Origin: Medicago truncatula | Lineage: Eukaryota > Streptophyta > Magnoliopsida > Fabales > Fabaceae | Direction: 5' to 3' | Assembly (NCBI RefSeq): GCF_003473485.1 | Contig: NC_053048.1 | Location: 44,016,755-44,080,754 of the forward strand | Length of the DNA: 64,000 bases | Part shown: positions 5,183 through 56,145 of the stretch, one piece after another | Layout of the letters: each line of letters begins with the position of its first letter | How positions within the stretch are numbered: position 1 is the first letter of the stretch | The notes under the pieces: generated by a model | Database searches by the model: none | What the model was told of the DNA's origin: nothing | What the model saw: the letters and a program-made list of their open reading frames with translations, nothing else | Position numbers and translations under genes: made by a program

Positions 5183-5431
5183 GCCAAGCACCAATCTAGT
5201 TGATCCCTTAATCTTTACTCGATTTGTTATCCTTGTGTAGCGTGACCGCACTCTTATAGAACGACATTCTTGGTATAGAACACAATCCCAGAACATCAAG
5301 CCCGCCAAGCACAAATCTAGTTGATCACTTAATCATTAGTATTTACTCGCTTTGTTATTCTTGTGTAGCGTGAGCCCAATCTTGTAGATCAACATTCTTG
5401 ATATAGAACTCAATCCTAGAACATCAAGCCC
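5183..5431. repeat. Diverged two-unit tandem repeat (~121 and ~128 bp)
   Basis: Unit 1 (5183-5303) and unit 2 (5304-5431) both begin 'gccaagcac', continue through 'aatctagttgatc' and 'cttgtgtagcgtga', and end 'agaacatcaagccc'. Unit 2 has a small insertion near 5330 and scattered substitutions. An open frame on the minus strand across unit 1 has no recognisable protein features. Function unknown. Confidence 0.8.
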
Positions 5432-6479
5432 ATATGTAAAGGTTTACCTTAATGACAAAACGACACAAAATACTTAGTTCCAAACCCAACTCTTGAGTGT
5501 CGAGTCTAAAATGTAAAGGCGTTTGGAGTGAGATTTTGAGAGTCTAAAATGCTTGATACTGAACAAAGTTGAACTTCATATAATTTTGTTTTCTTTTTTT
5601 CTTTGGTTATCGCTAATTTTTTAACATTGCTTTCATCTTTTATTTTTTTAACATATATACAACCAAAAAAGTGTAACGACCCTAAAAAAAAAAAAAGCTC
5701 ATCGATCAAAAAAAGGGAAAAAAGAGGGCTGGTCACATGATGATTTATGTAAAAAAAAAAAAAAAGTTTGAATTTTGTACGAATAAAAAAATAAAAAGAA
5801 AAGGAAAAAAGGGCATCGAATGGAATGAATGATCCACCGACCAAATTATATAATGTGAGTAACGTATGCTTTGCGGTCACTACCAACAAAACTACTATTA
5901 TCCTGCTCTTCCTTCCTTTCTAAATAAGCTTCTAAATGAAGAAGCATATGCACCCTTATATTCAATATGCATGCATGCTACCTCTATCTATTTATGAAGC
6001 TGAAACACCTCTTGAAGTAAGATATACTTATATAGGACCATCACCAATTGCTTCACAAACATTTTACATAATGAGGGTACTTCATGTTTTGACATTCTCC
6101 CTGGTCCTATTGTATGTGACGATAATTAAATATATGTTTGTTTGGACTCTCACCAAAATTAATTTTATTAAAATTGACTTCAATGTAGATTATTTTGCTT
6201 AAATATATTTAGTAAAAATGAATCAAACAATAAATTTGATGTTAAAAATTGATTCTTGGAACAATTTTTAAATATCAGCTTCAAGTTAAAAGTATTTGTT
6301 AGTATGTAGATGAAAACCAATTTTCTCCAGCAGAGATGAAAACTAATTTACTCGAGCACTTCCCAAAAAAGCAATATCAATTCAATGTTTTCTAAAATCA
6401 TCCTTGTCTCTTACAAAATAAAATTCAAACATGCAATGAGAGGGTAAAAAATGAGCCAAGTAGAATCTAAAAAACCTTA

Positions 6480-6631
6480 CAAAATGAATAGTTTTTTTTT
6501 AAGAAGCTAAACTAATCCCCTCAAATTGGCACCAGAGAGAATCGAACTTGAGACCTTGAGAAGAAGCACACTCCCAAATCTCAAGTCTTTACCACTAGGC
6601 CAACCGAAGTGGATTTGCAAAATGAATAGTT
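6480..6631 (-). mobile_element. tRNA-derived SINE with 14-bp target duplication
   Basis: Read on the minus strand, the element has a box-A-like sequence (TGGCCTAGTGGTAAAG), a box-B-like sequence (AAGTTCGATTC) about 40 nt later, and an A-rich 3' end (the plus-strand T run at 6492-6500). The 14-bp sequence CAAAATGAATAGTT flanks it on both sides (6480-6493 and 6618-6631), as expected for L1-type retroposition. The element body is about 6494-6617. Minus orientation follows from box order and tail position. It is short, intact-looking and probably a fairly recent insertion, because the duplication is perfect. Confidence 0.85.
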
Positions 6632-7796
6632 AATAAATTTCATTTTAAAATTTATCATGACTTGCCTTAACCTAAATAAAACTGATGATAATTTTAAACT
6701 TTTAGTACAAGTTGATTAAATTTCTAGGATTTGAAGAATATACACCGTCAGAAGAAAACAGTTTTACACTAATATCCAATCAAAATCCACTATTTTGCAA
6801 CATTACTCCACTCTTGTATGGGCAGTCAGAAGTTAATAATGCCATATAAAAATACAGCATTGCTATACATCGCGAGAATTTTTTCGCGAGTGTTATCCCG
6901 ACAGCAAAAAGCCTTTGATAACAAAAAAAAAAAAAAAAGGCCCCACATAGCTTTCAGGCGGTTACCACAATACAGCACTGGTGAGGGACTGCACTTACAT
7001 AACATTGTGGCGGGCTATGTCACATGACATAGCCAGTAAAATTGTGCCATGTATTGCTTCTTTTTAAAAAAAAAAAAAATCAAATGAAATAAAAGAAAAG
7101 AAACAAAGCAGAAGCAGAACACGTTCCCTTGGTAGCACACTCCTCTTCTTCTCAAAAACAAAACCCACCACCGTCAATCATTTGCTTTTCCTCCACCACC
7201 GGTTGTCACCTCCAATTGCCATCGCCTCCGCAGCCGTCGACCTACCATGAACCTGCCATCATAAGGTTTTTTTTCTTTATCTATTTTTTTTTTTAATGAT
7301 TGAAATGCTCATATGAATGAGAACAAACCATAATAGAAATCAAAATTTCAATGAAAGGAAAGAATAGGAACACTTGATTAGGAACAAAACAAACCTTTTT
7401 GAACTAGTTTCAATTCATTGGGATTTGATTTTAGGAAATTTAGGGTTTTTATTGAAGGATGATACATAACCCATTGCAATGTGACATAAACTCTGTTTTA
7501 ACTCTGTTTTTTTTTAATGGCTTGACTAATGCTATTGTTGTTGTGAAATAGAAAAAAGGATTGATTGATCCTTGAGAATCTGTCCTTATCATTCATTCTT
7601 TATTAATGTTTTGTATGCACTGTTTGATTGATCACCATGTCAAGCTAGACCCTTAGTTCAATTCATACTTCAAAATACCATGTCATGATAATTTTAGTGT
7701 TTCTTTTTCTTCTTGTTACATAAACTCTAATTCTTCTTTTTTTAATAGCTTGACTAATGTTGTTGTTTTTGTTGTTCCTTGATAGTTTGATCAAAC

Positions 7797-8726
7797 ATGG
7801 CATCTACAAATGTTGATTGGAAGCCAGAGGTTGGAATGAGATTTGATAATATGGAAGAGGCTAAACAATTTTGGCTTGCTTATGGTTTACGTGTGGGCTT
7901 CGGAATTAGAGTACGTTTTACAAACAAGAAGAAAGATGGTAGTGTAACATCATGTAGGTTGGTTTGTTGTAAGGAAGGGCTAAAGAATAAAGGGAACAAA
8001 AATGCATATGAAGGAAAATATGAGAGAGCCGATATTAGAACAAATTGCCTTGCAAGAATTACACTTTCACGCTGTAAGAACGGAAAGTTGGTCATACATG
8101 AGTTTAAAGATGAACATAACCATGACCTACAAAATCCGGAGACTACACACATGCTTCGATCACATAGAAAGATAACTGAAGTACAAGCATATGAAATTGA
8201 TATGGCCAATGACTCTGGATTAAGACAGAAGTCCACATTTCAACTTATGAGCACACATGCAGGGCATAGAGCTAATGTAGGATTTACAGAGAAGGATGTA
8301 AGAAACTACATCATTGCAAAAAGAAAAAGAAGTATGGCGTATGGTGAGATTGGATGTCTTTCACAATATTTTCAACGACAATTGTTGGAGAATCCATCCT
8401 TCTTTCATGCATATCAGATGGATGCCAAAGAACAAATTACAAATGTGTTTTGGTGTGATGCACGTATGATTTTGGATTACGGGTATTTTGGTGATGTTGT
8501 TTCATTAGACACCACATATTGTACCAACCATGCCAATAGACCACTTGCTTTTTTTTTTCTTTCTGGTTTTAACCATTATAGAGGTTCAATCATTTTTGGT
8601 GCAGCACTAATGTATGATGAGACAATTGAGTCATTTAAATGGTTGTTTGATACCTTTTTACAAGCACACAACAACAAAATGCTTGTATTTTTCATAATGC
8701 TTGTATTTTTTTTTAGCTACATATAA
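7797..8726 (+). CDS. FAR1-related sequence (FRS) protein, C-terminally truncated
   Basis: The 309-residue frame belongs to the FAR1/FHY3 family of transposase-derived transcription factors. Residues about 20-112 form the FAR1 DNA-binding domain of the WRKY-GCM1 zinc-finger type, ending in the E-H-N-H-D metal-ligand signature. Residues about 200-292 match the start of the MULE transposase core, including the first catalytic Asp in VSLDTTY. The frame then runs into low-complexity sequence (VFF repeats) and stops, so the second Asp, the Glu and the SWIM zinc finger of a full FRS protein (usually over 600 residues) are absent. No continuation was found in the next 1 kb. The start fits the family (MASTNVDWKPEVGMRF). 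A 5'-UTR intron at about 7266-7785 is plausible. It could be a pseudogene or a DNA-binding-only FRS-like protein. Confidence 0.75.
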   Translation: MASTNVDWKPEVGMRFDNMEEAKQFWLAYGLRVGFGIRVRFTNKKKDGSVTSCRLVCCKEGLKNKGNKNAYEGKYERADIRTNCLARITLSRCKNGKLVIHEFKDEHNHDLQNPETTHMLRSHRKITEVQAYEIDMANDSGLRQKSTFQLMSTHAGHRANVGFTEKDVRNYIIAKRKRSMAYGEIGCLSQYFQRQLLENPSFFHAYQMDAKEQITNVFWCDARMILDYGYFGDVVSLDTTYCTNHANRPLAFFFLSGFNHYRGSIIFGAALMYDETIESFKWLFDTFLQAHNNKMLVFFIMLVFFFSYI

Positions 8727-12722: not shown

Positions 12723-12854
12723 CAAATCCAAGATTTTAAATTCAATAAAAGAGCCTTTTTATGTTGGGAGTGTAGGTTGAATTTATTGAGTATAAAAAGG
12801 AGATTGAAATTCATTCTCATATGTTATTTACTTGTGAATATGATAATGTTGTGT
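12723..12854 (+). pseudogene. Reverse-transcriptase zinc-binding (zf-RVT) fragment, left part
   Basis: Translation toward the MULE gives a Cys-rich stretch ending in LFTCEYDNVVW, resembling the zinc-binding region downstream of plant LINE reverse transcriptases (C-x-H-x-LF-x-C-x-Y...VW). The phrase is cut after the target duplication at 12846-12854 and continues in frame at 16353. It is an old fragment with no start or complete domain. Confidence 0.5.
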
Positions 12855-13005
12855 GAAATTTTTTTTTTTTTGCCCTTATTTAATTCCAAAAATACAAAAA
12901 TGCCCTAGTTTTGAAAAAAATTGCATAAATGCCCTACTTTTCAGAAATTTCTGGTACCTTGCAACCCCCACTTGCGGGGTACCTTAAAAAAATTTTAAAA
13001 ATTAA
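12855..13005 (+). repeat. MULE left terminal inverted repeat
   Basis: It matches the reverse complement of 16202-16352 with only a few substitutions and small length differences in homopolymer runs. It includes the tract 'ggtaccttgcaaccccca' and one copy of the CCCACTTGCGGGG motif near its inner end. Confidence 0.92.
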
Positions 13006-13009
13006 CTAC

Positions 13010-13185
13010 CCCGCAAGTGGGACTTGCGGCCTACATTTTTTTTTTTTTTTTTAAATTAAATAACTACCACTTGCGGCCTATATGTTTTTTTTTTTTTTTT
13101 AAAATTAAATAACTTGCTACCCCAACTTGCGGGGTATTTAATTTTTTATAAAAATTTTTTAATACCCCGCAAGCCCCACTTGCGG
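13010..13185. repeat. Left subterminal repeat cluster of the MULE
   Basis: Several copies of CCCGCAAGTGGGG or its reverse complement, some partial, lie between about 12970 and 13185, separated by T- and A-runs. An equivalent cluster lies at 16050-16245. Subterminal repeats of this kind are often transposase-binding sites in DNA transposons; that role is inference here. Confidence 0.7.
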
Positions 13186-13289
13186 GTTTGTTTTTTGTTT
13201 TTTTTTTTAATTTTTAAAATAAAAAAAATAATAAAAAAAAGAAGGAAAAAAAATAATAAACATATTAAATATCATGATATCTACAATTA

Positions 13290-15306
13290 TTATAAATGCC
13301 CGGCTGTCCCACACCCTCGTCTTCGACGATTTCTTCCGCGATTTACTTGAGGGTCATGTTGGTCTTCGTCGTTGTTATCTGCAGCTGATTGTATTTGACT
13401 ACCATAACCCAATGACAATGACACATCGTGTTCCCTTGTTGGCCATCCCATATCCAGAAATTGATCACTAGAGTTCAACGAAGCCGGAGAAAAGTGAGAT
13501 AATAGGTTTGTTGGTGTTGGTGGGTGGTTGTAGTTTTGGTTGGTGTACATTGGGTATTGTGGGTTGCTGTAGGGGGGGTAATTGGTGTTGGACGGTCCAG
13601 CTTGGTTTGGGTCATTATAGGAGAAGTAGTTGTTGTTGGATGCGCCAGCTTGGTTTGGGTCATTGTAACCATAAGTTGACTGATAATGGGGCTCATATGC
13701 ATTTCTCGGGGAGGTATATGGTGGTGGTTGGATGATGTTTTGTTGGGGGGTGTCGAGAAATTCATACATTACAGAACCATGAATGTTTTGGGTTGTATGT
13801 GGTTGGGATTGATGATCTTGTAGTTGAGAAAAAATGTCTTGATCCCAAAAATCATCATGAATTGGTGTTTGGTTGTTGCGAATTTCAGGTTCATGTTCCG
13901 GCTCTTCTTCTTCGGCTTCGTCTGGATCTGAATTTGATGGGTTTGTTTCAATTGAAATCCTTAGACGTGGGTTGCATGTGGTTGTCAACCACTCAATATA
14001 CGCATGAGTGTGGGTGAGTGATCTTGGCCGCATGCGTGGTAAAGTATGACTCCGTCGGTTATCCCAATGTTCGCTCTCTTGTGGAAAGCGAAAACCATTT
14101 GATTTGTACCACGTCTTGAACCGTTTGTCTATTACATGGTACTGTGTCATGTCTCGTGGGGGCCCTGGTATTTCTTGTGGCAGACCAAATTGGAGCTTGA
14201 CCCTATCAGTTGGATGCCATTCAACTTTGTCAAAACATATAAGGTAAGATGTTGCAGTCCACTCCCAATATTCTTCAGGCAAGTTGTGTGGAACATTCTT
14301 GTATGGTCTCCATTTAAACTAGCACAAGAGATAAGATGTAGTGTAAGGTTAACAATTTTGATATATATATATAAAGTCATAATTAAAAAATCAATTATAA
14401 TATTACATCATGGGGTAGTATGTCATCAAACTTTTTTCGGTAAGAAATAGTGTCATGGCTTGGATTTTCATAGTATCTTGAACCTGCACCTGTCCATCTA
14501 ACAAATGATATAAACAATTTAGTAACTAATTTATCAAATAATAATATTAATAAGAAGTGAGAAAATGTGACGAAATAAATATTAAAAAAAAAAATTGATC
14601 ACGATTACTTTAATCCAAGCGGCCACTGGAGTGGGTTATCATTTTTCGGAGCGATATAACTCAACCGACAATATCCCCAAACTTGTAACAGGAAATGACA
14701 TCCTGTTAGTGCTTTTATATTTGGGTGTGATGCCTCACACAAGCCACGATAAAGGTAAGTCAACACTGCCGATCCCCAACTATAGTTTCTTGTTAGATTA
14801 AAATCCATTAACAAATACAACCAGGAGTTGTGCACAAATAATCCAGTTGTATTAGGAAACAAGAACCCTCCAAAGAGGTATAGTAGGTACCTCCTAGTGT
14901 GTTGTATTTTTACCTCCGGAGGAGATTGTTCACTGAAGTTATTATCGACCAGATTATCCTTTAACCACGACAATGAGAGGGTAAAACCATCAGTTTTATT
15001 TGCTGGAGGAGTTATTCCCAACAATTGAGCACAAATGTTCCACGCAAGATTTGGAGGAGCCGTAACAAATGGTCCGCAAAAAGGTAATCCGAGTAACATA
15101 TATACGTCTTCCAACGTGATTGTGCATTCACCCGTTCGAAAATGAAAAGTATGTGTTTCAGACCGCCACCTTTCTACAAGAGCGGTTACGATGTGTCTAC
15201 CGAAAGGCTTTAGCATGGGTCGACAATATTCCCAAACAAAAGTGGACTCAATCACATGATGATGGTCGACGATGGGGCCATATGACAAGTAACTTGGTAG
15301 AGTCAC
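13290..15306 (-). CDS. Plant mobile domain (MAIN-like) protein carried by the MULE, 5'-truncated
   Basis: The gene reads right to left in three exons: about 15306-14609, 14497-14407 and 14319-13290, with GT-AG junctions. Exon 1 holds plant mobile domain motifs (ALVERWRSETHTFHF, GECTITLEDVYMLLGLP). Exon 2 adds the RW(T)GAGSRYYENP region. Exon 3 gives FKWRPYKNVP, then VEWHPTDRVKLQFG, followed by a Pro/Asn/Gln-rich tail of about 200 residues and a basic C-terminus (RNRRRRGCGTAGHL). This domain occurs in MAIN/MAIL proteins and is known to ride in MULEs and Ty3 elements. Homology begins only at about 15200 (GRHIVTALVERW); the stretch from 15306 to there is antisense to the transposase, so the normal N-terminus is missing. 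Whether the product is made is unknown. Confidence 0.8.
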
Positions 15307-15956
15307 AAAACAACGTGTATAAGGGTATTCGAGGACTTCCGATCACAGCTATCGTGAAAGCATCATATTACAGGTTGGCGGCCTTGTTTGCTAAAAGAGG
15401 ACATGAGGCAGCGGCAAGGGTAAATTCTGGTGAGCCATTCTCCGAAAACAGCATGAAATATCTCAGGAATGAGGTGATTAAATCCAACATTCATCATGTC
15501 ACTCAGTTTGACCGAGATCGATATACCTTTTCCGTCCGTGAAACCATCGATCATAAAGAAGGATTGCCAAAGGGAGAATACAAAGTGGACCTGCAAAATA
15601 AATGGTGTGACTGTGGACGGTTTAGAGCGTTACACCTACCATACTCACATGTCATTGCCGCATGTTCTAGCTTTTGTCACGACTACAAGACTTTTGTCGA
15701 TAACAAATTCACGAATGAGTGTGTATACGCCGTATACAACATCCACTTCGACGTGGTTCACCACCAGACATATTGGCCTAATTATGAAGGACCGAAGGTG
15801 GTTCCCAACAAGTCAATGCGTAGGGCAAAGAAAGGTCGTCCACCAATTACTCGCATTAGGACCGAGATGGACGATGTGGAAACTGAGAGAAGATGCGGTG
15901 TTTGTAGGATGCCTGGTCATTCCCGCAAAGATTGCATTAATATTAGACATCAGTAG
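15120..15956 (+). CDS. MuDR-type (MULE) transposase, C-terminal half
   Basis: The 278-codon frame matches the end of Mutator transposases from about residue 30 (ALAWVDNIPKQKW, base 15207): SNLVESQNNVYKGIRGLPITA, a SWIM zinc-finger region at residues 162-185, and a CX2CX4HX4C zinc knuckle at residues 259-272 (CGVCRMPGHSRKDC). The N-terminal DNA-binding domain and the DDE catalytic core are missing. In the SWIM motif the first two Cys are present (CDC), but the usual PCSHV reads PYSHV at 15642-15644, losing a zinc ligand. Together these make it non-functional as a transposase. It stops 396 bp before the element's right end. The first 29 residues are antisense to the mobile domain gene. Confidence 0.85.
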   Translation: MCIHPFENEKYVFQTATFLQERLRCVYRKALAWVDNIPKQKWTQSHDDGRRWGHMTSNLVESQNNVYKGIRGLPITAIVKASYYRLAALFAKRGHEAAARVNSGEPFSENSMKYLRNEVIKSNIHHVTQFDRDRYTFSVRETIDHKEGLPKGEYKVDLQNKWCDCGRFRALHLPYSHVIAACSSFCHDYKTFVDNKFTNECVYAVYNIHFDVVHHQTYWPNYEGPKVVPNKSMRRAKKGRPPITRIRTEMDDVETERRCGVCRMPGHSRKDCINIRHQ

Positions 15957-16049
15957 AAATTTAGTCTTTATTTTGTTTATAGGATGTCTAGTGATTAATA
16001 TTATTATTAATAATAATTACGAGAAAAAATTAAAAAAAAAATCACATAA

Positions 16050-16245
16050 ACTAACCCGCAAGTGGGGCTTGCGGGGTGTATTAAAAACATTTTAAAAAAA
16101 TTAAGCATACCCCGCAAGTGGGGGTAGCAATCTATTTATTTTTTTTTAAAAAAAAAAAAAAAAAAAAAATTCATACCCCGCAAGTGGGGGTAGCAATGTA
16201 CTTAATTTTTAAATTTTTTTTAAGGTACCCCGCAAGTGGGGGTTG
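16050..16245. repeat. Right subterminal repeat cluster of the MULE
   Basis: Four copies of the CCCGCAAGTGGGG motif occur at about 16057, 16108, 16176 and 16226, mirrored by those on the left side. The three outer copies are followed by 'gtagcaat' or 'gttgcaag' and lie 50-68 bp apart. Confidence 0.7.
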
Positions 16246-16352
16246 CAAGGTACCAGAAAATTCTGAAAAGTAGGGCATTTATGCAATTTTTTTCAAAAGT
16301 GGGGCATTTTTGTATTTTTGGAATTAAATAAGGGCAGAAAAAAAAAAATTTC
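16202..16352 (-). repeat. MULE right terminal inverted repeat
   Basis: This is the inverted partner of 12855-13005. The 9-bp target duplication follows immediately at 16353-16361. Confidence 0.92.
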
Positions 16353-16615
16353 ATGTTGTGTGGTCAGGTGCTATGCAATGGATGAATATATATATCAATA
16401 CTAGCAATTGCCCGTCTATTTTGCAATATGTGCATTGTAAGAGGAACATTGATATACATCAAACTCACATAATGGTGTTGAGTGTGACCTTGTATATTAT
16501 TTGGAAGGAGAAAAATTGTAAAAGATTTCAGAATTGTTACGAGTCTGTTTATCAACTCCTTAACCAAATTAAATCAATTTTTTACATTAGAGGATTGCGA
16601 TTCAAGAAGGTGTAG
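16353..16615 (+). pseudogene. Reverse-transcriptase zinc-binding fragment, right part
   Basis: In frame with the left part at 12723-12854, the translation (SGAMQWM ... IIWKEKNCKRFQN ... LNQIKS) matches the C-terminal end of plant LINE zf-RVT proteins, where an 'IW(K/Q)ERN' phrase is typical. It ends at a stop at 16613-16615. The MULE insertion separates the two parts. Confidence 0.6.
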
Positions 16616-22522: not shown

Positions 22523-25500
22523 TCAGATTCCAAAGCCAAAAACAGCACGTATCCTTTGGAAAATAAGTTCCCTCCATCCCCTTTCAGTGTTCTCCACCAC
22601 AGTAGCATTCCCATACCTATATAAGAAAACCAACCATATCAGCAAATCACCCAGAAAGATAATAAAATAAACATTCCAATCATTCCCAATATTTAAAATA
22701 CTAACCTATCTTCCTCAGGTACATCGGTATGTGTCAGGTTTACAACAGTAACTCCTGGTTCAGGCTCCTCGAAAACAAGTCTCACCTGCAAAAATAAACC
22801 ATTAATAATTCGACACCATTCAATGACAATTTAACACACAATGACAATTTTGAAAAAAGCCGTCAATAATTCGACACCATTCAACACAACAACATTTGAC
22901 ACACAATGAAGATTTTGAAAAAGGTCATCAATGGTGATCGAAACCATGACATCATATATATTTTGTAGGTCTAAACTGTAAACAACTGTGATTCAACCAC
23001 GATTAATGCGACATCAGCTGATTCTTCACGGTATCAATAATAATCGCAACGAGGGGGTGACTTATAACGAATAGTATTCACTTCGGTCTATGAAATTATA
23101 GGACAGTTTAAAGTTTCAACTTAATCCTTTAAAATTGTAAAAAATTAATCAATGAGTAAATATCAAAGTTGGTCCTTGAAATTGTGGGGAAATGTGTTAA
23201 TTATGTTCATCCCTATGTCTAAATTCTCTAGGAAATGCATCCCTAGCATTATTCAATTAGATTCAAATCCATTCATGATATATCAACTTTAATGTCATTC
23301 TAGTCCTTGCAAATACCAAGGGAGGGACGAATTTGACTAAATTTTAAAAATTTCAAAGACATTTTATAGTACCACCATACAATTTCAAGTACCAATCCTT
23401 GCATATACCAAGGAAAGGAAAAATTTGATTAAAATTTAAAAGTTTTGAAGACATTTTATAATATAAAATCTCGATAATCTGAGGGTCTAGATTGATACTG
23501 CCTTACAATTTCAAGTACTCCCTCCATTCCTTTTCTTTTGATGTTTTAGCTCTTGACACAAGTTTTAAGGAGTAATGAAAGTATATAGACATTTGTGTGT
23601 TTTTTTACTTAAATGTCCTTGTTTATCATTAAATTCACATGTGATAAACCAAAGGTCACAACTACTTTAATAGTTTATTGTGTTTTCCAACAAGGGTAAA
23701 CTTAGAAAACAATAATAAATTCACTAAAACATCAAAAGTTTTGGAATATAGTTGAAGTTCTAAAACATCAAAAGAAAAGGAATGGAGGGAGTACCAATTT
23801 GAGTATTTACTCATTAATCAGGTTCATCCCTATGTCTGAATCTGTTATCAAATGTATCCTAACATTGTTTATTTACTTATATTCAAATGCATCCACATCA
23901 TTACCAACTTAATGCCATTATAGTCCATTAGAATACCAATGCAGCAGAACCAATCTAACTAACATTCTAGAACACCGTCAGTGTATAAGACCAAATTGGG
24001 CAGTCCTACAAAATTTCCCTACTCAACTTATAAACTAACACACGATTAAAATAAAAATCAATACCACATTTCCAATCCAACGTCATTATAGTCATAGTAG
24101 TCAATAGCGGCGACAAACCGCTATGCTAATTGTTGTAGCGGTGCGGTATGAGATAGCGGCCGCTTCAGCTGCTATTTGATTTTAGTTGAAAATTTTCAAA
24201 TTGACACTATTTTAAAAACATGTTGTATGATTTCCAAATTTCTAAATTTATTTTAGGGCATTTTGGGGATTTTTAAAACCAAATTGACTCTGTTCTACGG
24301 TTTCTCTGTTCTTTTTTCTTCCTCTGTTTTATGGTTTCTCTTGTTTTATTATTTTTTTATCTTTAATGAATGTCTCATGAGATTTGAGTGTTATAATTAA
24401 TTTTATATTAAATATGTAAGTTTGTTTATATTTTATAACATTTTTTTTTTGAGAGAATTTATATTTAATAACATTATTCATGTAATTTGTTCAAAAAATA
24501 ATCAAATATCGGTGACCACTATTTGTCATACCACAATACGCTAACCCGATATCCCACTTTTGAGGTTGGCCTCTACGCACCGCTATCAGAGATTGACTAC
24601 TATGTTGAATTTTGATTAAGACTTTCGATACTATGTTGAAGACTTTAAAGCTTTCATAAGATTTGGGTGTTTTGTATGATTTATGAATGATTCATGAGTA
24701 AAAGCTTTCATAAGATTTGGGTGTTTTGTATGATTTATGAAATTTGTCAAAGAAGTTATCAAATAGCGGTGCTATGCGCTTTTGGGGGTCGGCCGCTACG
24801 CGCCGCAATCCGCAATTGACTACTATGATTATAGTCTATAATATTATAATACCAATGTACCGGGACAAATCTAACTAACATCTTACTAAATTATTGTGAA
24901 TGTATGAGACAAAATTGGTATCTACTAAACTTACGAACTAACACACACAATCAAAATCAAAACCACATACCTGAGATTGAGCACCATCAATCCAGCTCCC
25001 GAATCTCCACCTCTGCACAATCAACTTCCCTTCTTGCAACTCCACATTACTCCCAGTAACAGAACCATCAAAAATACTAAACTCACCACCAACCTCTTTA
25101 CTAATCCTCGCATTACTCTGCGTAAAACCCTTCCACCTATTCTCATCCATCAATATCTCAAACAAATCCTTCGCCCTACAATTAAACTTCTCCGTCATCA
25201 CAATATTCTTCCTTCCCTTCTTAATCTCCTTCTTCTTCTCTTCTTTCTTAACAGAAGCATTTGTCGCAGCTGTTGCTGTCACCGTCGCCGGAACATTAAC
25301 ATTATTCTGCTTCACCGCCTGCGCCGCCGGCTTCTTAACCTCCAAATCCTCCTTAACAGGACCACCTCTCGACATACTCTCAACCCAAACCCTAACCTTC
25401 TCCAAAATCACCCCCTTCCCTTTCTGAAACATCGCATCCTTAATCCTCCTCCCAATTGGACTTTCATCTTCAACTATAACCCTAACATCAGGATCCTCAT

Positions 25501-25861
25501 CAGCATTCTCATCAGAAATATACGGAATCTCAACAGAACCATTAACCTTCAACAAAGAATTCCCTTCATTATCCTTCGCTTCACCTTCCCAGGAAACAGT
25601 GAGATTGACTTCATACCCAGGGATGATCTTCCCCTTACGGATGTTGATGTAGGCTTCACCGGTGAGGCTACGTAGAGTGGTAGTTTTGATGAAGAGGTTA
25701 CCTTCGCCGTTGAGGATTGTGAGATTGGAGAGAAGGTTGGTGAAGAAGTTTCTAGACCATTCTAGACAGTTTGTTTCGGACCAGTGCCAGTTGTGGACGT
25801 TTGTCCCGTCGGGGCGTTCTTCAACGATCCATCGTTTATCGCCTTCGCCGTATTTCGCCAT
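22523..25861 (-). CDS. AHA1: Activator of Hsp90 ATPase (AHA1) homologue
   Basis: Three exons on the minus strand (25861-24971, 22785-22706, 22616-22523) encode 354 residues. Residues about 12-165 form the Aha1 N-terminal domain, which binds the Hsp90 middle domain (VHNWHWSE, IRKGKIIPGYEVNLTVSWEG). A Lys/Glu- and Ala-rich linker (about 175-222) leads to the AHSA1/SRPBCC C-terminal domain (about 225-345; TEKFNCRAKDLFEILMDENRWKGFTQ, GSVTGSNVELQEGKLIVQRWRFGSW). AHA1 stimulates the weak ATPase of Hsp90 in the cytosol. Intron 1 is 2.2 kb and has been enlarged by two DNA transposons (23518-23791 and 24093-24827). The ATG at 25861 gives MAKYGEGDKRWIVEERPDG, the family's usual start. The sequence is intact, with a length close to that of other plant AHA1 proteins. 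Confidence 0.95.
23060..23517. repeat. Diverged short direct repeats in AHA1 intron 1
   Basis: Two related blocks start 'aataccaagggagggac' (about 23315) and 'atataccaaggaaagga' (about 23402). Both continue through 'aatttgactaaa / aatttgattaaa' to 'gacattttataata / atagta' and 'acaatttcaagta'. They look like an old local duplication of an interspersed repeat. Similar phrases resume after the Stowaway-like MITE (23800-23960), indicating that the MITE landed in this repeat. Confidence 0.5.
23518..23791. mobile_element. Stowaway-like MITE in AHA1 intron 1
   Basis: 274 bp with long terminal inverted repeats. The left end is CTCCCTCCATTCCTTTTCTT followed by 'ttgatgttttag'; the right end is its inverse 'ctaaaacatcaa...ggaatggagggag'. 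It is flanked by TA on both sides (23516-23517, 23792-23793). Ends and target site are those of the Tc1/mariner-related Stowaway group. It encodes no protein. Confidence 0.92.
24085..24835. mobile_element. hAT-like MITE in AHA1 intron 1
   Basis: The element (24093-24827, 735 bp) has 18-bp terminal inverted repeats CATAGTAGTCAATAGCGG / CCGCAATTGACTACTATG with one mismatch. It is bounded by a perfect 8-bp duplication ATTATAGT (24085-24092, 24828-24835), the hAT target length. The internal sequence contains many 'agcggt/ccgcta' phrases. The 3' terminal phrase 'gattgactactatg' also appears internally at about 24590-24603, so the right end seems duplicated. A 41-bp direct repeat starting 'aaagctttcataag' (24647 and 24701) lies between the two copies. 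Confidence 0.88.
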
Positions 25862-26073
25862 CGTACGGTGAGAATTGGTGTTCGGTTTTGGATGTGGTTT
25901 TGTCGACGGAGTGAAGACAAGGGTTTGGTTTAAGAAAGAAGGATTGGAAAGGTCTAGAAAGAAGGATGGAGTGATTTGATTTGTGTTTAGGGGTTTGATT
26001 GGAGATTTGAGAGGAAGGGTCTAGACCTTTTTTCTATTGGGCTGGCTTTTAGTTGGGCTAACTACTTTGTTTC

Positions 26074-27428: not shown

Positions 27429-27627
27429 ATGGCAGCCACAAATGTATCCAAGGATACGATTTCGCCTTACAAACAGAAACTAAGATGAAATTCTTTGAGA
27501 AAGAGCTTTAATGGCATCATCAACAAGGTCATGACCATGGAATATATCACAGACATTGTTCCCGAATTGTTTTCTCAAAACTTGATCCGCGGGAGAGGGC
27601 TCTTCTGCAGATCCCTTATGATCACAG
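27429..27627 (+). pseudogene. Out-of-frame 5' part of the CWC22-like copy
   Basis: From an ATG at 27429 the translation gives 19 residues ending YKQKLR, then a TGA at 27486-27488 where the CWC22 family has Trp (…RLTW…). The same frame continues with family-like sequence (NSLRKSFNGIINKV, IVPELFSQNLIRGRGLFCRS) to a stop at 27651-27653, while the main frame picks up the homology at 27628 one base off. One nonsense codon and one frameshift therefore separate this segment from the downstream open frame. The first ~100-300 residues of a full CWC22 protein are absent. Confidence 0.75.
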
Positions 27628-28995
27628 ATGGCCTATCCGGAGTATACCATTGAGTTTGCCGCGCTTGTTGCGGTCGTAAATTCCAAGTTTCCTGAAGTCG
27701 GTAATCTTTTACTCAGAAGAATTGTTTTGCAATTCAAATGGGCTTATCATAGGAATGACAAGCCTCATCAGTTACATGCTACTGTTAAGTTTATAGCACA
27801 TTTGGTGAAACAGCTAGTTGCACATGAGATTATTGCTTTGGAAATACTCACGGTTTTGCTTGATAACCCTATTGATGATAGTCTTGAAGTAGCTGTTAGT
27901 TTTCTTATAGAATGCGGTTCAACTTTGCAGAATCTTTCACCTAAAGCCCTTCATGCTGTATTTGAGCGTTTTCGTTGGATTTTATATGGTGAAGTTGATA
28001 AGCGTGTTCAGTTTCTAATTCAAGACTTATTTGCTGTAAGAAAAACTAGGTTTCAGAGTTATCCAGCTGTTCCACCTGAATTAGACCTCGTGGACGAGGA
28101 GGATCAGTTGACGCATGAAGTGTCGTTGAATGAGAGTATAGATCCAGAGTTTTCGCTTGATGTATTTAGACTGGATCCAGATTATGTAGAGAACGAAAAA
28201 CATTATGAGCAGTTGAAGAAAACTATCTTGGGAGACGAAGAAGAAATCGAGGGTGATCAGGAAGGCGACTCAGTCGTTGAATCAGATGAAGAAGATGGCG
28301 AGAAGCATATGCAGATAAGGGATGAAGCCGATACCAATCTTGTGAATCTTCGAAGGGCTATATATCTGACCATTATGTCGTGTTTAGATTTTGAGGAAGC
28401 TGGTCATAAGCTTCTCAGAATTATTCATCGCCAGAAAGGTCAAGAGATCCAATTATGCAATATGATTCTACAATGCTGCAGGTATGAAAAAGTTTATCGT
28501 CCATACTATGGTCTTCTGGGGGAGCGTTTTTGTATGATCAACAAAGTTTATCAACAAAACTTTGAAAAGTGTTTTGCTCAACAGTTGTCAACAATTCACA
28601 GGCTTCAAACAAATCAACTCCGAAATGTGGCACAGTTTTTTGCTCATTTGCTTGCCACATCGACTCTCCCTTGGAACGTGTTATCATATATCCGGTTGAC
28701 TGAAGAGGACACAACTTCTTCTTCGCGGATATTTATTAAGATTCTGTTCCAAGAGTTATCTGAGCATCTTGGCATCCAGGTGCTGAATGATCGGTTGAAT
28801 GATCCAGTAATGCAGGATTGTTTTGAATCATTATTTCCCAAAGATAGCACAAAAAACACACGGTTTTCCATTAACTTCTTCACGTCGATTGGACTTGGCG
28901 AGCTTACTAAGAATCTAGGCGTCTATTTGAAAAATCTGACCTTGCGGAGCTCCCATTCATTGGATGAAAGTGGCAGAAAACGTAGAAGAAAATAA
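27628..28995 (+). CDS. CWC22-like splicing factor copy (MIF4G/MA3), N- and C-terminally truncated
   Basis: The 455-residue uninterrupted frame resembles the spliceosomal protein CWC22, which recruits the exon-junction-complex helicase eIF4AIII. Residues about 5-150 are most of the MIF4G domain (FAALVAVVNSKFPEVGNLLLRRIV, VAHEIIALEILTVLL, VDKRVQFLIQDLFAVRK). Residues 205-225 are acidic. Residues about 230-350 are the MA3 domain (LRRAIYLTIMSCLDFEEAGHKLL). It ends soon after INFFTSIGLGELTKNL with a short basic tail (GRKRRRK) and lacks the long C-terminal extension seen in plant CWC22. The Met at 27628 corresponds to an internal residue of the family. No intron is visible across either domain. The uninterrupted frame suggests recent origin or constraint; expression is unknown. 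A pseudogene or retrocopy is the likelier reading. Confidence 0.7.
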   Translation: MAYPEYTIEFAALVAVVNSKFPEVGNLLLRRIVLQFKWAYHRNDKPHQLHATVKFIAHLVKQLVAHEIIALEILTVLLDNPIDDSLEVAVSFLIECGSTLQNLSPKALHAVFERFRWILYGEVDKRVQFLIQDLFAVRKTRFQSYPAVPPELDLVDEEDQLTHEVSLNESIDPEFSLDVFRLDPDYVENEKHYEQLKKTILGDEEEIEGDQEGDSVVESDEEDGEKHMQIRDEADTNLVNLRRAIYLTIMSCLDFEEAGHKLLRIIHRQKGQEIQLCNMILQCCRYEKVYRPYYGLLGERFCMINKVYQQNFEKCFAQQLSTIHRLQTNQLRNVAQFFAHLLATSTLPWNVLSYIRLTEEDTTSSSRIFIKILFQELSEHLGIQVLNDRLNDPVMQDCFESLFPKDSTKNTRFSINFFTSIGLGELTKNLGVYLKNLTLRSSHSLDESGRKRRRK

Positions 28996-42413: not shown

Positions 42414-45028
42414 CTACGACACAACCCGCCTATAAAATTCATTGAAGTCAAGACGGAAAAAGAGAAACTTTAGATCAACATGCTGCTGCACAGGCAACTG
42501 AGAAATGAAATCCTCTTGCAATGATGAATACTCCTTAGATATTGCATCCAGATCTTGTTCCATTTTTTGGAGAAAAACACCAGCGTGTTTTGTTATGGCT
42601 TTTCTCCCATCAGCAATCCAGGATTCTTCTTCCGATGACTTATCAGTCGATCGCTTCCGTGTTTTCTTCTGGTCTCGAGAGGACAGTGAGGACTCTGTGA
42701 TTCTGAAACAAACAGATGATCAAATGTTAAACATGGCAATATGGGGAGAAGAAATTGAGGAAGCAGTAAAGAAGAAAAGTGTGATCAATACCTTGCTTGC
42801 AACTCGTGAATGCCTTCGTATAAAATATCCGCATGGCTCCGAAAACGTAATATAAGATCAAATATTACTATTAGTGACTTGTAAAGGGACTGAGAGAGTT
42901 CTCCAAGGAGAGATTTCTCTACAATCGAATTCATATATTTCTCATGAGCTGCAAGTAGATCATCAAGATCCTTGGCTACTTCCATCTCACTTAAAAAGTT
43001 AGACCATGATATTTCCAAGACTTCAAACATTATATAATATTGCAAGTTTGAAATGAAGTGGTTAATTTCAACCCAAAGAACTTGGCAACGTCTCAATGCT
43101 GAAACTAGCTGCATCTTAACAGCATGTTGCAATCTATTAAAGGTATTAGAAGTTATGCAGTTTGGTTTCATGGTCTTCCAGGCACCAATAAGTGCATGTT
43201 CCACTCTCTTAAGCTTCCATAGAAAATTAAAAATTCTTAAATACCTCGCCATCACAGACTCTGTGAACACAGTATCTAGTGGAACTCTTGCATCATATTC
43301 CAGAGAGAATACATCCCAGCCCCTATCACCGCTTTCATGTGGCATCATTTTGACCCTGAGCCTATCCAAAATATCAGGGTCATCATACTGAGCATTTGAC
43401 GCCCGAATTGCAGTTTCCAGCAAACCTGCAAGTTTGAAAGAGCTTATTGTGTTCGCAGGCACAGAAAGTTCAGGCCCAACAATATCCATTAGATATTGCA
43501 CAAAATCACCTTGGCCAAGCAACAAATACCGCTTAATCGCAAGACAGTGCTCTTTGAATTTATACCTCTCATAAATTACATCCAATAGATGCTTATCAAT
43601 TCTTTTTGAAGCTTCATCAACCAATGACTCAAGGGTATCAGTTTCCCCGTAACCAAAACCACCACGTCTTGCCATTGCCCCTGTATCTTCAGTCGCGGCA
43701 CGAGCCCAGCCACGGTCCTCACAGCAAACACGGAGAAAATTTATGGACTTTCCAGTCCTCAAAATCCTCTGAGCAAGAGAAGCCGAAATAAAAGAAGGAA
43801 GCATAGCATCATAGAGCCGATATCCCTCTCTCCAAAGCGATTCAGCTTTCACAGGCTGCCCAACAATGAAAAACTCAACAAAAATATCTTCCAACTCCCC
43901 TTCCAAAACCCACCTCTTCACCATTTCAAAAAGCGGAGAACACACACGCCGAAGCAACCTCTTCATAAACTCATGAACCATCGGATCCCCATGTCTAGCG
44001 TGTAAATGAATCGCACCTGCCATCGCCCCACCTCTCAAAACCCTACACTTCTCAACCAAATCCGCCATCAACTTCATCTTCACCATCGGCTCAGCAAGCC
44101 AAACCGCCAATCTCCTCAAAGATAAATAATTCCCGGAACTCACACCCTCAGACAACAACGGAATCGGATTCGAACTCTGAGCCTCAAGCACAGCCAACAA
44201 CTTATAATAATCACTCAACTCATCCTGCAATGCAGCACAAAAAGCCTGCCCAACCGTCCCCACATCCTCCGCGGGAAACCTACCCAAACTCATCTCAATA
44301 AACCCAACAACCCTCTTAAACAAAACCCCTAATTCACAAAGCTTAAAAACCATACTAGAACTAGCCCTAGAAACCCTAATTGAATCCAACAAAACATAAC
44401 CATCACTCTCTTCATCAAATTTCACATACTTCCCATCCACACCTTGACAAGCATAAATCACATCAGTCACCATAGCTTCCTCAGTCACATCATTCTCTTC
44501 CTTTATCAATTTCACATATTCATTAAACGCTATTTCGCGACGATTCTTGGGATCCCTCGCAAGAATGACAACACCATCATTAAATCCATTATTTTCACCG
44601 CGCGGTTGAACGTTATTCTCCGAAATCGTTAAATTGGGAAGAAGAACGGAAGGGTCATTCGATTTAGCAGCGGATTTACGATCTTGAGAGATAATATTGA
44701 AGAGATGAAGTAGGGACCACTTATTATCGATATGAGTGGCTTTGGTGGAGAATTTGGTGTAAAGGTCAGCGAAGGAGAGGGCTTCGGAGGAACGACCATC
44801 GGTGGCGAGACGGCGTTTGATGGAATCGGCGACGGCGGCGGAGTCGGGGGTGATGGAGGGGGTTAAGTGGGAAGAGAGAATGCGGTGAGCGTAACGGAGG
44901 GAGTTTTGGAATTGAGGGGAGTTAGGGTTTATGGGTTGGGAATTTGGGGGGAGATTTTGGGAGAGGAGGTGGTGGACTAGGGCTTTCACTAGATCTGGGA
45001 GTTTTTGTTGTTCTTCTTCGTCGTCCAT
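42414..45028 (-). CDS. GCP3: Gamma-tubulin complex component 3 (Spc98 homologue)
   Basis: Two exons (45028-42792 and 42702-42414) encode 841 residues, the usual size of plant GCP3. The N-terminal ~190 residues are the family's variable region. The GCP N-terminal domain runs about 190-500 (IYACQGVDGKYVKFD, LRRLAVWLAEPMVKMKLMADLV, GELEDIFVEFFI, NFLRVCCEDRGW). The C-terminal gamma-tubulin-binding domain runs about 510-835 (KRYLLLGQGDFVQYLMD, FTESVMARYLRIFNFLWKLKRVEHAL, HEKYMNSIVEKSLL), ending in QHVDLKFLFFRLDFNEFY. GCP3 and GCP2 form the small gamma-tubulin complex that nucleates microtubules at the nuclear surface and cortex. The start MDDEEEQQKLPDLVKALVHH is family-like. Confidence 0.96.
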
Positions 45029-45779
45029 TGTTGCCGCCGGAGAGTCAGATGAAACGGTGTCGTTTTGAGTGTGGTTCAGAGTGAAAGAGAGAGAGAGAAA
45101 GGTTTTTTTTGATTTTTGGGTGGGCGCGGAAATGATTTTCTTTTTTGGGTTAATGGCGGAAAGTGAATGTTTTATTGCAGGTAAGTGTGATCATGGAATT
45201 GAAAGTACAGGTAGTATAAGGGATAGGTGATTATTGTCATTCAAATTGCAAATATATTTTAAGTTTCAATTTCTTTTTTGTTATTTTGGGGATTAAATTG
45301 AAATATACATTTGATAATCAACATGACATATACGAGGATCTCGTAAAAAAAAAATATATGAGAATTATTTTTTATGTTAATCCTCCAATTTTTATGCAGA
45401 AGTATTTTAATCATCGTTGTTCTATCCAAAAATTAAATTTAGGTTCTTCTAGATGTAGTAAAGCGGTTTGGTTTTGTTCTTGCGAGAAAATAAATTTGAA
45501 TGAATAAAAATTAATTGGTTTGTTTTTACAACCTTCTCGTGAAATTTGAATCAAACTAAATTGATGAAGATCATATTAGATTTGATTTGCTTCGATTGGG
45601 TTGATATTTTTATTTTAAAAAAGATAAGATTATAACTTATTTTAAAAATCTATGATAAAATAACTTTTATAAGAAATTTAAAATTCATTTAAAAAACATG
45701 ACATCACTTTTATTAGTAACAAAACAAATAATGTCTAATTTTTTTTTTTTGGCATTACATTAATCCAAAAGGAGTCGTA
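45029..45779. other. GCP3 promoter side and intergenic DNA
   Basis: This region includes the GCP3 5' UTR (minus strand; a GA-rich tract at about 45080-45105). There is no other gene. The 73-codon frame at 45286-45507 has no recognisable features. Confidence 0.5.
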
Positions 45780-54129: not shown

Positions 54130-56145
54130 ATGGCTCCTGGAGGAGGTATTTTCAAAGAAGTTCTCGAGTCTCACCTCTTGACTTCAGATTATGAAACAGG
54201 CAAGGCTAAATCTGAGGCCAAGATTAACAGTACACTTACAAAATCCACTAGTGTTGGATTGAATGGAAAGCACGGAACTAGTTCAAAGAATGGTGTGCAT
54301 GATTTACTCGGGTGCCCTGTCTGCAAGAATTTGATGTATCCTCCAATTTACCAGGTGCACTGCTTGCAATTTCTTTCTTTTCTTCAAGCGTCTATTCATG
54401 TTTCGGGAAAACCTTTTTTCAAATGCGCTATTGCACACATGAAAGTTGTGAAGTTATCATAGATATCTATTCAATTTATTTGTTAAGCAAGTTACATGAT
54501 AGCTTTTTGAGTTTAATATAGTAAAGTGAATATTTTAGAGTCATACCAAGCAATAATAAACAGATAAAAACCTTTAGTTTATAGGTATTTCACTGTCACT
54601 TTCTATTGTGAGTTTAGTTCCAATTCCAATAATAGTTACCAATATTGTAATATCCTGCTAAATTTTAAATTTCTAATATTTCTGTTTTGTATGCATTGTG
54701 TGTTTCAGTGTCCAAATGGCCATACATTATGTTCAAATTGTAAGATTGAAGTCCATAATCTCTGTCCCACCTGTCACCATGATCTTGGGAATATAAGGTG
54801 TTTGGCTCTGGAGAAAGTGGCGGAATCTTTGGAGCTTCCTTGCAGATATCAGAGTCTAGGGTGTAATGATATTTTCCCTTACTATGCTAAGCTTAAGCAT
54901 GAGCAAAATTGTGGATTTCGTCCATACAATTGTCCGTACGCTGGATCTGAGTGCTCTGTGATGGGTGACATTCCAAATCTTGTTGATCATCTCAAGGATG
55001 AACACAAGGTTGACATGCATGATGGATTCACCTTCAATCATCGATATGTCAAAACAAACCCACATGAAGTTGAAAATGCCACATGGATGCTCACTGTAAG
55101 TGACTCAATGGCCTGTTTGTTGATTTGATTGACTATATCTTCTAGATTAGCATTTTTGCATTATGCTTATTGTTTAATTTTTAAAAATCTCAGACATATC
55201 TTATAACTTATAACATGTGACATTTAATTTTACGTTCACATATGGCATACTTGTTTTGTTCTATTGACACACACAAAAAACTTCTGTGGTATTTTTTAAC
55301 ATTCTCCCTTTTATTAGCTACAAGTGGTGTTGGCAGTTTCTTAATTAGTCATATTTTCTGAGAAGCACCTCACTAATTATTGAATATGGATCACATGACA
55401 TACACTTAGGCATGTGCTCTTTTGACTTTTGATGAATAATTTTAAGTTTTAACTCATCCAATTTAGTTGCATGGTTGAATTTGTTTTTCCTTTTTCTGTT
55501 TGATCTTCATCTAAATATTACCTTAGTCTAAAGCTATGGTATATAGGTTCTGCTTTGGTCTTCAGTATTGTGACCTCATTTTTAACTTCTAGTCTAAGAT
55601 TTACAAATGTAACAAATCAGAGTGGGGAAATGCAAAGTAGCTACAGCACGATGGTTTGAAGACGAGAAATTGCATTGGAAAGATAACAAACGTGATACAC
55701 AAAATCACTATTTCTAGGGAGCTTATCACATTGATGAACCAACTAATAAATATTTAAAGTAACTTGAACTAACTTTTATTCTAACATAAAACCCCTCTTG
55801 CATTTCAAATTCTTTGGCTTTCAGGTTTTCAATTGCTATGGAAAGCATTTCTGTTTGCACTTTGAGGCTTTCCAGCTTGGTACAGCTCCAGTTTTTATGG
55901 CCTTCTTACGGTTTATGGGCGATGACAACGAATCAAAAAAATTCAGTTACAGCTTAGAAGTCGGTGCATATGGGCGCAAACTTATATGGCAAGGAATTCC
56001 TAGGAGCATACGCGACAGTCATGGTAAAGTTAGAGATAGTCAAGATGGACTAATAATTCAGAGGAATCAAGCCCTTTATTTTTCGGGTGGGGATAAAAAG
56101 GAGTTGAAATTGAGAATCACTGGTCGTATATGGAAAGAAGATTGA
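54130..56145 (+). CDS. SINA-like RING E3 ubiquitin ligase (SINAT type)
   Basis: Three exons (54130-54354, 54709-55095, 55825-56145) encode 310 residues, the normal SINAT length. The C3HC4 RING finger starts at C62 (CPVC...CPNGHTLCSNC...CPTC). It is followed by the SIAH-type zinc-finger region (LPCRYQSLGCNDIFPY, HEQNCGFRPYNCPYAGSEC, HLKDEHKVDMHDG) and the TRAF-like substrate-binding domain (NCYGKHFCLHFEAFQLG, FMAFLRFMGDDNE, YSLEVGAYGRKLIWQGIPRSIRD). SINAT proteins ubiquitinate targets such as transcription and trafficking factors, acting as dimers in the nucleus and endosomes. The exon 1 boundary splits the RING after the second Cys pair, as in other SINATs. No damage is seen. Confidence 0.95.

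Follow-up and report, generated by a model that had tools for sequence, protein, structure and literature searches.

We analysed 64,000 nucleotides of Medicago truncatula DNA (NC_053048.1, positions 44,016,755 to 44,080,754), hereafter the window. Between positions 12855 and 16352 lies a 3,498 bp transposable element in which part of a plant mobile domain (PMD) gene is joined to part of a transposase gene. We are highly confident that this element arose by internal deletion from a member of a recently active family of Mutator-like elements (MULEs), and that it is young and non-autonomous. Taken by itself the window copy matters little, being an ordinary, defective example of an element type already described. 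Its family offers a testable, and fairly surprising, lead on PMD function. The family's value lies in very young members, five fetched copies with open tested exons of both genes, and what is probably a model genome.

A perfect 9 bp target-site duplication, ATGTTGTGT, flanks the element on both sides (12846-12854 and 16353-16361). At the local base composition, two given 9-mers would agree by chance with p ~1e-5. The terminal inverted repeats (TIRs) align over 151 bp with 5 mismatches and, past this point, the match dissolves into short GC-rich repeats. Long TIRs with a 9 bp duplication identify the element as a MULE. Two minus-strand frames match the PMD profile PF10536 (E 2.7e-47 and 4.3e-13). 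The plus-strand frame at 15120-15956 corresponds to the 3' exon of transposases in sibling copies; taken alone, it gives a sub-threshold SWIM match (E 0.058). The MULE transposase domain sits in exon 1, absent from the window copy and present in the full-length sibling L012. PMD is antisense to the transposase within one element, as in PMD-bearing MUDR-type MULEs. To this extent an earlier description made from the letters alone (the sequence-only reading) was accurate; it had recognised the ends, TIRs and duplication, the minus-strand PMD gene and the 3' half of a MuDR transposase on the plus strand. The features of the element are listed below.

12846..12854, no strand: left target-site duplication ATGTTGTGT, read from sequence
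12855..13005, plus strand: left TIR, 151 bp, from end-to-end comparison of the element
12966..13186, no strand: left array of GC-rich CCGCAAG / CTTGCGG motifs, candidate binding sites, from enrichment in sibling L012
13290..14318, minus strand: PMD gene, last exon (PF10536, E 4.3e-13; 97.95% to L012)
14407..14501, minus strand: PMD gene, small middle exon, limits set by eye from splice consensus
14605..15202, minus strand: PMD gene, main exon, with its 5' part and the start exon lost (PF10536, E 2.7e-47; comparison with L012)
15199..15203, no strand: deletion junction between the two gene pieces (strict overlap 1 bp, imperfect 4/5; single genome occurrence)
15199..15956, plus strand: transposase gene, 3' exon only, with exon 1 lost and one SWIM cysteine replaced (match to sibling exon)
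16056..16241, no strand: right array of CCGCAAG motifs, read from sequence
16202..16352, minus strand: right TIR, 151 bp, from end-to-end comparison of the element
16353..16361, no strand: right target-site duplication ATGTTGTGT, read from sequence

The genome (429.9 Mb, 42 contigs), in which the window lies on C7, was searched with 155 bases containing most of the left TIR. Since 40 of 172 candidates were scored, the resulting count is a lower bound. There are at least 41 matches, two of which are the window element's own ends. Duplications were sought with each end allowed to slide by up to 8 bases, at lengths of 8 to 11. Perfect flanking duplications of 9-10 bp, all different, were found in 18 of the 19 fetched copies besides the window copy; the exception, L015, has none. 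Six of the fetched copies reach full length, at 6.59 to 7.57 kb. Five of these (L009-L013) have no stop in four tested exons, and in the sixth (L023) the two PMD exons tested each contain stops. The sequence-only reading had proposed such a search, for copies sharing the internal structure of the window copy; the copies recovered have different duplications, and among them are full-length relatives carrying a transposase. Its view that the element is non-autonomous and has full-length relatives also holds, as siblings with open transposase frames exist.

In L012, the PMD gene (minus strand) and the transposase gene (plus strand) diverge from a central non-coding region of ~1 kb. The PMD main exon has a frame of 239 codons and the last exon a frame of 340 (342 in the window copy). 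By eye, a start exon with a credible splice donor and acceptor is recognisable in the central region. The tested part of the transposase covers 600 codons in exon 1 and 282 in exon 2. Exon 1 matches the MULE transposase domain (PF10551, E 2.4e-16) and the MuDR DNA-binding domain (PF03108, E 5.9e-8); exon 2 matches a SWIM finger (E 3.2e-6). A full-length element would encode a transposase with all three domains, and a PMD protein, on either side of the central region. In one full-length copy, L010, a PMD intron contains an extra 0.9 kb, ~1.5-2.4 kb along the oriented element, where the matching flanks overlap by 15 bases; this is perhaps a nested insertion.

The window copy equates to positions 1-2350 of the L012 element joined to positions 5409-6645. 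Relative to full-length siblings ~3.06 kb is gone. The PMD gene has lost its start exon and the beginning of its main exon, the transposase gene has lost all of exon 1 and the beginning of exon 2, and the central region between them is absent as well. The strict overlap at the junction is 1 bp (ACCGA in the window, ATCGA in siblings). Allowing up to 2 mismatches, a 24-base pattern spanning the junction occurs at one place in the 430-Mb genome. A 401-base query over the junction is contiguous at the window locus only (40 scored of 128 candidates), so these searches place the junction at one locus rather than several. Breakpoints other than the window's are seen in L014-L018, L024 and L025, where BLAST ends overlap by 3-12 bases or leave 1-12 bases of filler. 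Faulty break repair in a full-length copy probably removed the centre and both gene starts. The transposase motifs that we located are presumably the DDE catalytic residues. As two of the three catalytic residues fall in the lost exon 1, active transposase is not expected from the window copy; the siblings' transposase could move it.

The sequence-only reading instead saw a distinct composite, non-autonomous subfamily with a fixed internal structure. This is very unlikely. PMD and transposase pieces do lie within one element with good ends, and the family does have amplified derivatives. Thus L019, L020 and L027 (regions of C5:5964536, C4:34384027 and C6:10157500) are 1.03-1.09 kb long and have one common right-hand internal breakpoint with different duplications. 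These three, rather than the window copy, probably represent an amplified short non-autonomous form. The fetched siblings are full length or otherwise deleted. Because the window junction occurs once, and full-length siblings hold the same genes 3.06 kb apart, a composite subfamily is not supported. It is contradicted in this assembly, while a spread copy in other accessions is still conceivable. The arrangement had also been called head-to-head and doubly truncated: both gene starts are lost, but what remains is the usual divergent layout with its middle removed. Hence, an intact MULE exists and the truncation is a later deletion, unique to the window locus in this assembly, which is the outcome that the sequence-only reading had named as telling against it. 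A recent move had been proposed from the near-identical TIRs. Recency stands, on low divergence from siblings (mismatches of 0.25-0.83% in the left part and 0.38-0.88% in the right, nine copies each, gaps uncounted), while TIR similarity does not serve as a clock. Repeats can be misassembled, but the duplications match on both sides and several other copies have internal deletions, so an assembly error that joined the two gene pieces is most improbable.

Several points weigh against an internal-deletion derivative that is mobile, silent and formed by a particular repair route. No empty site was found with the 500-bp left flank, the flank searched, whose 11 matches elsewhere span 141 bases at most. 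Movement of the window element, with transposase acting in trans, is presumed. The PMD frame is open save for the lost start, so some expression is possible. Since the strict overlap is only 1 bp, the deletion could equally well stem from end-joining, following a break of any sort, or from gap repair that was interrupted.

We compared PMD sequences between subfamily A, represented by L012, and subfamily B, represented by L049. The main exon differs by 34.5 synonymous and 31.5 nonsynonymous changes over 239 codons (dN/dS 0.24; Fisher p 7e-8, on rounded counts). For the transposase exons, dN/dS is 0.16 and 0.09. Relative to L012, PMD dN/dS is 0.20-0.32 in 11 of 11 copies (L049, L053-L062), which are related sequences and not independent. 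In a further family, C (L050), PMD is 42.6% identical to that of L012 and the divergent layout is the same. Linkage was counted for 58 of 140 transposase matches and 60 of 170 PMD matches, among the matches listed; we set aside the window copy, fragmentary matches, PMDs of low identity and hits that fell in the query's antisense transposase portion. A PMD match lies within 8 kb of the transposase at 21 of 27 A/B loci and 12 of 27 family-C loci, and all 33 are divergent. From linkage and dN/dS together, PMD looks like an inherited accessory gene, unlike a chance capture. It is co-inherited within the family and has stayed under purifying selection between the subfamilies.

MULEs are known to capture gene fragments (Ikeda 2017, PMC5418596). 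Hence, the element could be a Pack-MULE, holding fragments of a host PMD gene and of a transposase acquired by chance. Such an origin predicts dN/dS near 1 and PMD in few copies, whereas the A/B comparisons give 0.20-0.32 and the same divergent linkage occurs in two diverged families with PMD under constraint; we regard it as scarcely credible. Other observations qualify this picture. Within family C, PMD dN/dS in ten pairs ranges from 0.07 to 0.97, on few differences. A PMD match is missing near 6 of 27 A/B and 15 of 27 family-C loci (21 of 54 in total), which argues against a strict need for PMD. PMD was near none of four other transposase loci (43-66% identity).

In a tree of 32 PMD rows, the MULE-type PMDs all fall in one clade (100/97), next to L052, with which it shares one side of a split supported at 99/96, with a long-branch warning. 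We take L052 to be a host MAIN-like gene, of which the PMD was tested. A second tree, to which 8 of 10 fetched single-exon PMDs were added and from which 8 rows were dropped, leaves the fork between A/B and C open, again with a long-branch warning. On these trees a single origin of MULE-type PMDs is likely, and unsettled since this fork stays open. A cluster of single-exon PMD genes occupies C3:23.03-23.27 Mb, with 12 near-complete, stop-free matches and open frames of 615-803 codons. Those members of the cluster that were sampled are distant from the MULE PMDs on the second tree. The PMDs L051 and L069-L072 may belong to Ty3 elements or to the host.

Arrays of GC-rich motifs occupy both ends and the centre of the elements and vary from one family to another. 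In the L012 element, CCGCAAG and its complement occur 15 times, compared with a mean of 0.39 and a maximum of 2 in 200 random sequences generated with the dinucleotide frequencies of that element. By the same randomisation, CCCGCCA occurs 8 times in family C (0.35 expected, maximum 2). The motifs were picked among the commonest words, so the enrichment arises partly by selection, and the sites are repeats, so are not independent events. Comparing positions by eye, none of the 15 CCGCAAG sites of L012 falls in the four tested exons; all are in the ends or the central region. In L050, six CCCGCCA sites are in the ends; two are in the centre, within a frame that is open, yet upstream of where the transposase probably starts (by eye). 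CCGCAAG occurs twice at the L050 locus, neither time in its ends, and CCCGCCA was not found in the L012 locus.

Two PMDs were modelled with AlphaFold2. The first model, of the L012 main exon, used a 22-sequence alignment (A1; mean pLDDT 65.2, pTM 0.64). The second, of the single-exon PMD L076 from the same genome, used 24 sequences (A3; mean pLDDT 64.6, pTM 0.67), and 18 of its first 21 ten-residue blocks exceed 75. Both were compared with 350,542 PDB chains using Foldseek, with alignments that share rows and without an unrelated control model. The L012 model matches VANC21 bound to its target DNA (9lnj) with query TM 0.50, probability 0.47 and E 1.4, tenth by E-value among the best 50 of 160 matches. 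For L076, the same structure ranks first among the best 50 of 97 (TM 0.42, probability 0.97, E 0.11). Among the matches listed, VANC21 is the sole non-trivial PDB match common to both models; for the remainder, query TM does not exceed 0.17, nor probability 0.08. VANC21 is a DNA-binding anti-silencing protein of VANDAL transposons (Hosaka 2017, PMC5735166). A crystal structure of VANC21, then unpublished, is mentioned in a meeting report.

VANC proteins carry DUF1985 (Hosaka 2017, PMC5735166). The best PMD score against DUF1985 is 17.7 bits, compared with a curated cut-off of 35.1. Of the eight PMD types scanned, four (L060, L052, L070 and L051) match one stretch of the profile, 76-139, weakly and below the cut-off (E 0.0037 to 0.064); two match DUF7745 instead and two match neither. 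Weak DUF1985 matches are present in 13 of the 22 A1 members and 7 of the 24 A3 members, and DUF7745 matches in 14 and 6, respectively; L076 has neither. The only DUF1985 match in the genome, L075 (C1:29038471-29038710; 64 candidates scored), is weak, below the cut-off and contains a stop. This single match contrasts with a genome rich in PMD elements.

We tentatively propose, as quite possible rather than probable, that PMD is a diverged relative of VANC and that PMD-bearing MULEs use PMD as VANDALs use VANC. By analogy, and on the predicted models, PMD may recognise its own family-specific GC-rich arrays in the ends and divergent promoter and keep them unsilenced, with motif and protein changing together. 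The likeness to VANDAL21 and VANC21 (PMC5735166, PMC10398659) extends to a MULE with an accessory gene and family-specific non-coding motif arrays, and may extend to the fold, judging from the predicted models. VANC targets are described as non-coding motif arrays that differ between related elements (Hosaka 2017, PMC5735166; Sasaki 2023, PMC10398659). Unlike VANC, PMD scores below the DUF1985 cut-off, and PMD binding and demethylation would follow by analogy. The case is further weakened because neither VANC21 E-value is significant alone, both models are of moderate confidence, and the A1 and A3 profiles gave no match to PDB sequences at E up to 10. From this last result, the VANC21 link is invisible to plain sequence search.

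The role of PMD is a question separate from the origin of the window copy. Rather than opposing silencing of the element, PMD could act on transposition itself, as a mudrB-like helper, or on host genes. The second MULE gene mudrB, of unclear function, is apparently needed for integration (Dupeyron 2019, PMC6446971). MAIN and MAIL1 are required for silencing as well as activation of host genes (Nicolau 2020). Consistent with such roles, PMD was not found near 15 of the 27 family-C transposase loci entered. Set against them is VANC21, the only non-trivial structural match of the predicted models among the matches listed. A helper or host-gene role is possible, if somewhat doubtful. Should PMD instead be a VANC relative, host MAIN and MAIL1 would join the same DNA-binding superfamily, which might explain their silencing role. 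If the PMD fold is the VANC21 fold, what MAIN, MAIL1 and the PMDs of MULE and Ty3 elements do can be asked directly in terms of DNA binding.

An anti-silencing use of PMD has been speculated upon by Ikeda 2017 (PMC5418596), who described PMD-MULE fusions in grasses and Amborella; if our proposal is true, this speculation gains a mechanism and candidate sites. As in Medicago, those elements combine PMD and a MULE transposase. They encode fusion proteins, whereas the Medicago family has separate divergent genes. Nicolau 2021 repeats the anti-silencing idea and calls PMD a domain of unknown function. No paper joining DUF1985 with PMD was found in open-licence PMC, so earlier publication is possible. 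Similarly, homology of VANC and PMD is not stated in those open-licence PMC passages that name both, and may have been published earlier.

The architecture itself is not new, since Dupeyron 2019 (PMC6446971) tabulated antisense PMD in most MUDR elements and often in MUDRAVI2, with PMD and/or DUF in half of VANDAL members. The MUDR, MUDRAVI2 and MDR groups of that study resemble the window family in their long TIRs, 9-bp duplications, SWIM finger and, for most MUDR, antisense PMD. Unlike them, the window copy is without both gene starts; the likeness is one of layout. MuTAnT (PMC4486113) is also a MULE family of Medicago truncatula. It is described as targeting TA microsatellites.

Elsewhere in the window, a FAR1-like frame at 7791-8723, ~4 kb from the element, combines a FAR1 DNA-binding domain with the beginning of a MULE domain. 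Four host-type genes encode an Aha1-type Hsp90 activator (24938-26017), an MA3-domain protein (27622-28992), a gamma-tubulin complex component (42788-45190) and a SINA-like protein (54568-55125).

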